Assembly (NCBI GenBank): GCA_947630795.1
Contig: CANRJC010000001.1
Coordinates: forward strand, 1-64,000
Length of the DNA: 64,000 nt
Direction: 5' to 3'
Source: an uncultured Phascolarctobacterium sp.
GTDB taxonomy: Bacteria > Bacillota > Negativicutes > Acidaminococcales > Acidaminococcaceae
Position 1 is the stretch's first letter. Every line of letters starts with the position of its first letter. The position numbers and the translations under genes were made by a program. Positions 3,154 through 29,250 of the stretch are shown here, piece by piece. Below the pieces are notes generated by a model that was not told the origin of the DNA, did not search any database, and saw only the letters and a list, made by a program, of their open reading frames with translations.

Positions 3154-3186
3154 ACCGTCGCCGCTTAAAAAAACAAATCCAGAAAC

Positions 3187-3302
3187 TGATCGGGCCATAG
3201 ACAGCAGGTGCCGCGAGCGTAAGGACTTTAGGGTCCGCCTGCCGAGGCTGGAGCGTGAAATAAATTTTTCGACCTCCGGCTGCGGCCGAGAGGTCTTTTG
3301 AT
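3187..3302 (+). promoter_or_regulatory. ribosomal protein L10 leader with attenuator
   Basis: The region between rplA and rplJ holds the L10-leader signature: AGACAGCAGGTGCC, then CCGCCTGCCGAGGC (3194-3247), in which the CAGGTG and CCTGCC strands pair. It ends in a terminator-like stem GACCTCCGGC / GGCCGAGAGGTC followed by TTTT (3271-3299). Known members bind the L10-L12 complex and reduce rplJL expression. Confidence 0.85.
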
Positions 3303-3335
3303 TTGGGAAAATTTTACGAGAAGGAGGTGCGATCC

Positions 3336-27642: not shown

Positions 27643-27704
27643 GATAATACCGATAGGAATTTTAGGCAGCGGTCCTACCGCCGCTATAAGGAGGTAATGT
27701 GTTC

Positions 27705-28187
27705 ATGTTGAAAAAAGCTTTGTTGACTACTTTGGTTTTGGGCATGACTGCCATGGCCTCTGTGGCCTTTGCCGCCGTCACCAGCACGCAGGCTATCGAG
27801 ATCGCCAAGGCCGAGACTTCTGCCGGCGCCGGCGTGTTCAGTTATGAAGACGAGCTCCATAAGTATGAGATCAAATTGCAGGACCCCGCTACCATGACCC
27901 GTTACGAGGTCGATGTAGACAAGATCAGCGGCAAAGTTCTGGAAGTCACCGTTAAAGTCGCCGCTCAGGAGAGCAGCGCCAAAGTGGTGAAGAGCGCCGA
28001 AGATATCAAAGCCATCGTGTTGGCCGAGTACCCCGATGCCCGCATCATCGGCATCCGCTTGGACAAAGAAGACTACGGCCACAAGTATGAGGTGAAATTC
28101 GCCAACGCCAAGTATCGCATCGCCGAGTTGGACATCAACCCCGAGACCGGCGTCATCGTGGAAAGAGACCTCAAGTACAATCTGTAA
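27705..28187 (+). CDS. secreted PepSY-domain protein
   Basis: PepSY domains are small periplasmic modules thought to inhibit proteases or bind ligands. The 160-residue product has a signal peptide (ending SVAFAA, about residue 22) and two PepSY-like repeats: TSTQAIEIAKAETSAG...YEVDVDKISGKVLEV and SAEDIKAIVLAEYPDARI...AELDINPETGVIVE. I start at ATG 27705, ten bases after AAGGAGG; GTG 27699 is in frame but too close to the site. It has its own promoter and terminator. Confidence 0.85.
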   Translation: MLKKALLTTLVLGMTAMASVAFAAVTSTQAIEIAKAETSAGAGVFSYEDELHKYEIKLQDPATMTRYEVDVDKISGKVLEVTVKVAAQESSAKVVKSAEDIKAIVLAEYPDARIIGIRLDKEDYGHKYEVKFANAKYRIAELDINPETGVIVERDLKYNL

Positions 28188-28204
28188 GTTCAACGAGATC
28201 AGCG

Positions 28205-28230
28205 GGAGGCGCAGAAGCGCCTCCTTTTCT
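28205..28230 (+). terminator. terminator after the PepSY gene
   Basis: GGAGGCGC / GCGCCTCC stem with AGAA loop and TTTT tail. Confidence 0.8.
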
Positions 28231-28284
28231 TTTGCCGCTTCGCCGCCGCTCTTTGCGCCGAAGGCGGAGAGTTTTCGCAAAATC

Positions 28285-28316
28285 AAAGAGGCTGCCTGCG
28301 GGCAGCCTCTTTTTCT
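28285..28316. terminator. second, bidirectional terminator
   Basis: A 12-bp stem (AAAGAGGCTGCC with GGCAGCCTCTTT) with T or A runs on both sides; it can stop transcripts on both strands, including any read-through from the cobalamin riboswitch unit to its right. Confidence 0.75.
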
Positions 28317-28462
28317 TAGCGCTTTTTTAACACAGCAACTAAGAGGGGGTCTTTGAGGATCGAAGTGGCACTGAGGGAAAAACTCAAGAAGGGCGTGTAA
28401 GGCAAATGTCCGGTTTGCGCTTCCTTCGTGTTTACAAGTGCAATATTTCGCCCCGCTCGGGC

Positions 28463-28495
28463 AAGAAAAAGACCGCTACTGCTCGCAGTAACGGT
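28463..28495 (-). terminator. terminator of the cobalamin riboswitch RNA
   Basis: On the minus strand ACCGTTACTGC and GCAGTAGCGGT form an 11-bp stem (plus-strand arms 28485-28495 and 28472-28482), followed by CTTTTTCTT. Confidence 0.75.
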
Positions 28496-28690
28496 GCCGC
28501 CCACACATTTTGCAACGATCGCCACTCTCACATAAACGACCGTCTTGAATGATCACCGGCTTCCTGTCGCTCGCAGGTCAAGCATCAGCTTGCATAAAAG
28601 GCCCTGCTGGCTTCAGGCTGCACCTGTTACAGCGGCGGGACCGCACCGGAATCACACCGGTCGAGGCTCTTTACGCGAAATATTGACTTG
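28496..28690 (-). ncRNA. cobalamin riboswitch with no gene downstream
   Basis: On the minus strand the leader contains CCGGTGTGATTCCGGTGCGG followed by TCCCGCCGCTGTAACAG (28661-28625), the core of the cobalamin element, and AAGCCAGCAGGGCC (28611-28598) at the place of the B12 box (a variant). It has its own promoter and, about 110 bases on, a terminator. No coding gene follows on the minus strand; the PepSY gene lies convergent. A 71-codon frame across the terminator (28316-28531) has no ribosome site. It may act as a B12-sensing small RNA. Confidence 0.75.
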
Positions 28691-28698
28691 TTGGCATA

Positions 28699-28727
28699 AT
28701 TGTAACTTGTCTTAATAAGAATGTCAA
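28699..28727 (-). promoter_or_regulatory. promoter of the cobalamin riboswitch RNA
   Basis: On the minus strand TTGACA (28722-28727), 17-base spacer, TACAAT (28699-28704). Confidence 0.75.
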
Positions 28728-28749
28728 GAGATTTCGGAAAAGTTTCTCA

Positions 28750-29250
28750 AATTTTTCGATGCGATAATCTATCCTAATTAAATTCAAAAAGTCGGCGCCC
28801 TCGCATTTGGCGTCCGTTTGAAAAAATCTCTGCGCTTTTTCTGCGAATTTTGAGAAAAAGTTAAACCCTCGGCACTGCATATCGGCACTAAAAAACTTGC
28901 TTGGGAAAATATCGGCGCTTTCTGTCTGAGCTTTTCAAAAAAATCGCACAGACGATCTCGTTTGCAAAGAAGACGAAAGGAGACCACCATGCTACGTTGG
29001 CAGAGTTTTGAAAATAAAGCAGAAGATCCGCAGCGCCTATTTTTCGTGCGGGAGAGGCAAAAGGTCTCGGCGTATTTGGCCCGGATTTTCCCGAAAAGAT
29101 CGCGGGGCGAACTTCGCATATTTTTCAAAGAGTTCATCGGAAAAAGCAGCCGGTTTCTTCTTCGGTTTTTTCAAAAAGAGCCGGCAGTTGCGAGGCACCT
29201 TCGTTTGAAGAGAGGTCTTCTTGAAAAGCTCGCTGCGTTTTCTTCGCTCT
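28750..29250. repeat. degenerate intergenic repeat stretch
   Basis: Loose repeats of words such as TTTTGAGAAAAAG, TTTTCAAAAAAATCG and GCGAACTTCGC fill the gap between the riboswitch and the CDF gene. They match the style of the tandem arrays elsewhere in the window, but no period is clean here. Confidence 0.4.

Follow-up and report, generated by a model that had tools for sequence, protein, structure and literature searches.

A free-standing cobalamin riboswitch RNA of Acidaminococcaceae with a candidate target in trans, the mRNA of methylmalonyl-CoA mutase

Our analysis of a 64,000-nucleotide stretch of DNA from an uncultured Phascolarctobacterium sp. (contig CANRJC010000001.1, positions 1 to 64,000; "the window") points to a small RNA under the control of its own cobalamin (B12) riboswitch. 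With a probability of about 0.74, we consider it to be a stand-alone, trans-acting RNA that B12 would end at a first terminator (T1), and whose long form would block translation of the methylmalonyl-CoA mutase gene (mcm) when B12 is missing. Comparison of homologous sequences establishes the element, its structure, its complementarity to mcm and the way it tracks target changes. Control at T1 and the sign of regulation are what we infer from this, with predicted transcripts.

The original prediction described a closed unit of about 230 bases on the minus strand, ending at 28463, and its parts were found. The promoter TTGACA-17-TACAAT at 28727-28699 (−) has 11/12 matches. The cobalamin aptamer was recognised when the proposed Rfam check was run (RF00174 Cobalamin, 31.9 bits at 28661-28604 (−), gathering threshold 31.5), and the intrinsic terminator T1 was located at 28495-28472 (−), followed by CTTTTTCTT. 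As had been claimed, the minus strand carries no coding gene 3' of the unit, and the next gene, 27699-28187 (+), is convergent to it. The proposed extent proved too short: conservation spans from the promoter to 28399 and further, and past T1 there is a tail and then a second terminator (T2) at 28312-28285. Judged by this conservation, the minus-strand unit is an RNA gene of roughly 400 nt, not 230. A small ORF at 28531-28316 (−) was rejected, as it overlaps T1 and its frame is not conserved in the alignment. The alignment set consists of 29 distinct homologous sequences with the same order of parts: promoter, leader CAAUAUUUCG, aptamer ending in P13 (CCUGCGAGCGACAGG), GUGAGA(G) hairpin, T1, GC(A/G)GGNCGAAAUAUUG, a tail with a CCGGACA loop and a C/U-rich tract, and strong T2. 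In the window the features are as follows:

28699..28727, minus strand: promoter TTGACA-17-TACAAT, hexamers and spacing kept in the 29 aligned homologues
near 28692, minus strand: predicted transcription start, as expected from the promoter
28676..28685, minus strand: 5' leader CAAUAUUUCG, predicted to pair with 28450-28441 in the long form
28554..28689, minus strand: AdoCbl/cobalamin aptamer, RF01482-like by covariance-model matches; P1 covaries in 7/7 pairs
28577-28563, minus strand: P13 (CCUGCGAGCGACAGG), 3' end of the aptamer
28517..28541, minus strand: seed hairpin with invariant loop (GUGAGA in 29/29); the stem covaries
28531-28524, minus strand: seed GUGAGAGU, complementary to ACUCUCAC of the mcm leader
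28462..28495, minus strand: T1 with U-tract, stem covarying in 10/13 pairs; putative B12-dependent decision point
28441..28456, minus strand: post-T1 sequence GCGGGGCGAAAUAUUG, predicted to capture the P13 5' arm (CCUGC) and the leader in the long form
28402..28418, minus strand: tail hairpin with the loop CCGGACA, conserved in the alignment
28355..28372, minus strand: tail segment AGUGCCACUUCGAUCCUC, complementary to the mcm start codon and Shine-Dalgarno sequence (SD), bipartite, −20.8 kcal/mol
28285..28312, minus strand: T2, end of the long form, hairpin −20.9 kcal/mol

Cobalamin binding by the RNA is probable from its resemblance to known aptamers. The AdoCbl model RF01482 (clan Cobalamin) matches at 28689-28554 (−) with 47.6 bits (gathering threshold 50, E 1e-7) and reaches 51.7-57.2 bits in three homologues (L007, L009, L010); in several members the aptamer scores lie near or below the gathering thresholds. 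The aptamer core and P13 with its loop CGAGCGA match the model. What differs from RF01482 elements is that the riboswitch here controls an RNA, not a downstream gene, and that a conserved leader, seed hairpin and tail are added. Matches to the Rfam families Phe_leader, Thr_leader and ctRNA were sub-threshold and were rejected as terminator look-alikes. The window's genome (G000) has one other cobalamin riboswitch, canonical and scoring 106 bits (L001 1501-1674; G000:C22:17802-17975). It lies upstream of an ORF with a signal-like start at 1957, and the part of this ORF that was seen bears no resemblance to a transporter. A ribosomal protein L10 leader is also present in the window (3177-3310 (+), 47.8 bits).

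A covariance model of the aptamer plus seed hairpin (R1), searched against 59 Acidaminococcaceae genomes, finds the RNA as a single, always free-standing copy with 115-161 bits in 36/59 genomes and 9 genera, although these genomes are mutually related and sequence counts overstate independent events. Ordinary B12 riboswitches score at most 64 bits with R1, a few cis relatives in one genus 87-94, and in other families of the order R1 found ordinary riboswitches only (at most 53 bits). The cis relatives, L014 (G019:C2:86356-86488) and the copies in G067/G063, lie upstream of a gene and share the P12/P13/T1 platform; they are possible ancestors of the stand-alone RNA. At the DNA level, 28200-28760 has matches in 39/61 related genomes; identity is 96% in another species of the genus and 66-76% outside the genus. 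Many of the shorter matches are the aptamer core common to all B12 riboswitches, and the longer ones pass T1. A pattern made from the conserved 3' part matched 41 times in 84,980 species genomes. Every match accompanied by the other parts of the element comes from Acidaminococcaceae (Phascolarctobacterium, Succiniclasticum), P. faecium DSM 14760 and S. ruminis DSM 9236 among them, and the small remainder is without aptamer.

The usual order at the locus is lon-engB-(abrB-like)-RNA-convergent cation efflux gene-valS, where lon, engB and valS were named from sequence and the cation efflux gene by Pfam in the window. In most loci the convergent efflux gene begins past T2; in the window and its sister an efflux gene is upstream of the RNA. 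Note that a NiCo riboswitch (53.1 bits, 30438-30350 (−)) precedes the cation diffusion facilitator gene of the window (30352-29315 (−)), and that in relatives the gene convergent to the B12 RNA is usually a homologue of this facilitator gene. The idea of a B12-sensing small RNA is thus supported by comparative data: it is free-standing in 36/59 genomes of the family, its structure covaries, and its neighbourhood is kept without a downstream gene.

The structure is well supported by covariation. In the consensus, 95.8% of cells are paired and two-sided changes are seen in 29/55 pairs. The covariation score is 0.385, as compared to 0.196 after shuffling and no more than 0.147 with slid partners, and it is best in P1, the seed hairpin and T1. 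RNAalifold was applied to the full-length set and, in a second run, to the alignment from leader to post-T1. It pairs the leader with post-T1 CGAAAUAUUG, and the P13 5' arm (CCUGC) with the preceding GCAGG. The leader helix (helix 1) is paired in 95.9% of cells with three pairs changed on both sides, and a leader binds the post-T1 sequence of its own RNA better than a swapped partner (p 0.00015). Being nearly invariant, the P13-GCAGG helix is no proof by itself.

The switch between P13 and T1 would depend on an antiterminator. During transcription the loop and 3' strand of P13 are predicted to pair with the T1 5' arm, and in most sequences this predicted antiterminator makes P13 and T1 mutually exclusive. 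Complementarity exceeds that of shuffles, but covariation is weak (p 0.005 for all sequences, 0.10 minus two sequences). In free energy, the complete antiterminator duplex is no better than shuffles. A flanking helix between GAUGUU and AACAUU, GCAUU or AUAUC gives −4.45 kcal/mol for own partners, −3.66 for swapped and −2.15 for shuffled ones, which supports antiterminator pairing, with the limit set by the weak covariation.

Given the B12 aptamer of the RNA, we looked for a target at the 5' ends of genes for methylmalonyl-CoA mutase (PF01642). Where these genes share a leader, it contains AC(A)CUCUCACC, then a hairpin that has GUCC in the loop, and AAGGAGGAUUUGAGA-AUG. CUCUCAC in this leader is the complement of the GUGAGAG loop of the RNA, with 8-10 uninterrupted Watson-Crick pairs, and in nearly all genomes tested this is the longest match of the short form. 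The CCGGACA loop of the tail complements GUCC in the loop of leader hairpin 2; it is retained on altered stems and, in other genera, is part of T2. In 32/59 genomes a pattern for the leader has a single match, which lies upstream of this mutase; there was one chance match in a mutase-less genome, and the reversed control pattern gave three. Both the seed loop and its leader site are nearly invariant, so that covariation between them is not measurable. The CUCUCAC motif is also found in genomes where the RNA was not found (G005, G006, G031), and CUCUCA can pair in cis with UGAGA-AUG of the same leader. Conservation of CUCUCAC is therefore not due to the RNA alone. The mcm leader itself is conserved and structured (e.g. 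L157 7870-7753 (−)), with a hairpin CCGUC..GACGG, a CUCUCAC linker and the GUCC-loop hairpin. A GGACA:UGUCC pseudoknot and sequestration of the start by CUCUCA:UGAGA-AUG are possible, also where the RNA is missing.

In 26 genomes the tail of the long form can form ungapped helices of 8-19 bp over the start region of mcm; in P. faecium the helix is 19 bp (UUUAUUUGCUGUUUUCAAG with UUUGAGAAUGGCAAAUGAA). With 19/25 distinct tails, fewer than 3% of the 184 other start regions reach such a score (shuffled-tail median 0.3%). The sequence of the tail differs according to the mcm start. The tail contains GAUAU or ACAU where mcm has AUGUCA, UUUGYYAU where it has AUGGCAAA, and in most cases AUGCYGU where it has AUGGCAUU. 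If partners are exchanged between groups, the score falls for the AUGUCA and AUGGCAAA groups, and duplex strength drops overall (permutation p 0.0001). By this comparison the tail follows mcm coding changes between genera, as is expected of a base-pairing sRNA acting in trans. A weak start helix is seen in the window's genome and its sister (G001), where 4 of the 10 bp are GU pairs (not significant; duplex z −0.73). The duplex there is bipartite (UGCCA to UGGCA, AUCCUC to GAGGAU; −20.8 kcal/mol), and 21% of background ribosome-binding sites equal it. Assignment of the target in these two genomes thus rests on homology, the 8-bp seed and the bipartite duplex. Hfq is encoded in 4/4 genomes tested.

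Taken together, these data suggest mcm as the best-supported target in trans. It is the head gene of the succinate-to-propionate operon, which in the window's genome reads mcmA-mcmB-meaB-epimerase-mmdA-gamma-biotin carrier-beta and is preceded by succinyl-CoA:acetate CoA-transferase. The operon and the transferase make up the full, sodium-pumping pathway from succinate to propionate. According to a published prediction, P. faecium synthesises B12 itself and lives on succinate (PMC7568257).

Two homologues from one genus (G016, L122, G016:C14; G032, L132, G032:C40) have lost the sensor. Their aptamer core is gone, leaving no Rfam match, the T1 hairpin is weaker and its U-tract lost, while the leader, seed loop, GGACA loop, tail and T2 are retained. 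The tail of G016 pairs over 13 bp with its own mutase start. They were the only real homologues among genomes lacking the RNA when these were searched for diverged members with a second model, R2. The best R2 match (G005, 40.7 bits) was rejected as a plain terminator without the GUGAGAG loop. Loss of sensor and terminator with the targeting parts kept is expected if the long form is the working regulator.

We propose the following mechanism. Transcription would start near 28692 (−). With AdoCbl bound, P13 would form and kiss L5, T1 would fold and a short RNA of ~220 nt would be released. In the absence of B12, an antiterminator would form between the 3' strand of P13 plus GAUGUU on one side and the T1 5' arm plus its preceding bases on the other, and the polymerase would read through to T2. 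Nearly all homologues have a strong terminator 3' of the tail. The post-T1 sequence would capture the freed 5' arm of P13 and the leader, locking the aptamer open. That ligand leads to T1 and its absence to read-through is what the usual P13/L5 logic of riboswitches would predict. The long RNA of ~400 nt would then dock on the mcm mRNA with its GUGAGAG loop on CUCUCAC of the leader, its CCGGACA loop on the GUCC loop, and its tail covering start codon and Shine-Dalgarno sequence. This would block translation of the operon's first enzyme, which depends on B12. Since it is the long form that would cover the start codon and SD, repression is predicted to occur without B12, which is the useful direction because the enzyme is dead without its cofactor.

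Some observations could be read with the opposite sign. As CUCUCA pairs in cis with UGAGA-AUG and the motif is kept in genomes without the RNA, the seed loop might open the start, and the short form could activate. It is conceivable, although we hold it for rather doubtful, that one RNA makes two opposite regulators. With B12 the GUGAGAG loop of the short form would open the mcm leader and activate, and without B12 the read-through form would refold, its tail locking the aptamer open, and the same docking site would deliver the anti-start-codon tail for repression. A pure activator, whose seed loop would release the mcm start codon from sequestration by the leader and whose tail would have a modulating role only, appears improbable. 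The leader can indeed sequester the start codon via the very bases that the seed loop complements, and the seed hairpin lies upstream of T1, in both forms. The tail, however, complements the start codon and SD, which would block initiation, and sensor-less homologues would read through constitutively and keep the tail.

It is also quite improbable that this B12-controlled sRNA has other mRNAs as its main targets, with mcm one of several or incidental. The tail does contain a C/U-rich anti-SD tract of a generic kind, and our target search was guided by the B12-dependent enzyme, not genome-wide. Against this, pairing to the start codon is specific and follows mcm coding changes between genera, and the leader site is unique to mcm.

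Few regulatory RNAs under riboswitch control are known, and the modes described in the literature consulted are a protein sponge (EutX/Rli55), an overlapping antisense RNA (AspocR) and terminated fragments (SreA). EutX of Enterococcus faecalis and Rli55 of Listeria monocytogenes sequester the ANTAR protein EutV via a dual hairpin (PMC5821096, PMC8079631). They share with our RNA a stand-alone non-coding layout in which B12, through an AdoCbl aptamer, shortens the transcript at a terminator and only the long form inhibits (PMC5821096, PMC8079631), which in our case is predicted from sequence; aptamer, terminator and a read-through form are all present at that level. They also guard against making B12-dependent enzymes without B12 (PMC5821096, PMC8079631). 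The B12 RNA described here differs in having no dual hexaloop hairpin and in that its long form complements an mRNA. A long form sequestering an ANTAR antiterminator in the EutX/Rli55 manner is accordingly very unlikely. There is one ANTAR protein per genome in 4/4 tested, and the AGGGGU loop of Phascolarctobacterium-type tails fits the A1-G4 hexaloop of ANTAR sites, but a simple scan found a neighbouring pair of A1-G4 hexaloop hairpins in 0/29 sequences, the AGGGGU hairpin is absent from the window and Succiniclasticum, and base pairing with mcm accounts better for the conserved tail. As to its position, this invariant hexaloop hairpin lies between the C/U tract and T2 (L025-L031, L036, L061, L070).

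AspocR of Listeria is an antisense RNA to the overlapping pocR, controlled by a B12 riboswitch (PMC8079631, PMC9943018). The likeness is in an inhibitory RNA under such control, with a long form without B12, a truncated form of ~230 nt with B12, and the resulting sign inversion (PMC8079631, PMC9943018). AspocR overlaps pocR on the opposite strand, whereas here the target is elsewhere in the genome and pairing is short and imperfect. The long form does not lie opposite its candidate target in the window's genome, where mcm is on contig 12 and the RNA on contig 1; in Succiniclasticum they are ~10 kb apart. The comparison with eut and pocR loci made in the original prediction therefore holds for the logic of control and fails for the target, which is likely an mcm mRNA in trans, not an ANTAR protein or an overlapping gene. 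SreA and SreB of Listeria are SAM riboswitch fragments acting in trans on prfA, and such a riboswitch RNA base-pairs with a 5' UTR (PMC8079631), as predicted here. SreA is a terminated by-product of a cis riboswitch before a transporter operon; the RNA described here, in contrast, has no cis gene and carries its inhibitory parts in the read-through form.

That the element is a relic or orphan of an ordinary cis riboswitch after loss of its (transporter) gene can be dismissed in spite of near-threshold aptamer scores and the plausible ancestry among cis riboswitches with a similar P12/P13 platform (87-94 bits, e.g. L014), since a single free-standing copy is kept in 36 genomes of 9 genera with promoter, aptamer structure, both terminators and tail all conserved, and none of the sister genomes has a gene of its own behind it.

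We found no description of this B12 RNA in the open-access literature, to which our search was confined. Our results suggest that what is new among riboswitch-controlled regulatory RNAs is base pairing in trans on the mRNA of the very enzyme that depends on the cofactor. If the two-regulator reading is true, B12 would switch one sRNA between activating and repressing an enzyme needing B12. If repression by the long form is true, the cell would switch off its succinate-propionate energy pathway when the B12 cofactor is missing, and B12 supply would be linked to the formation of propionate in Phascolarctobacterium and Succiniclasticum, succinate users that are abundant in the human gut and the rumen.
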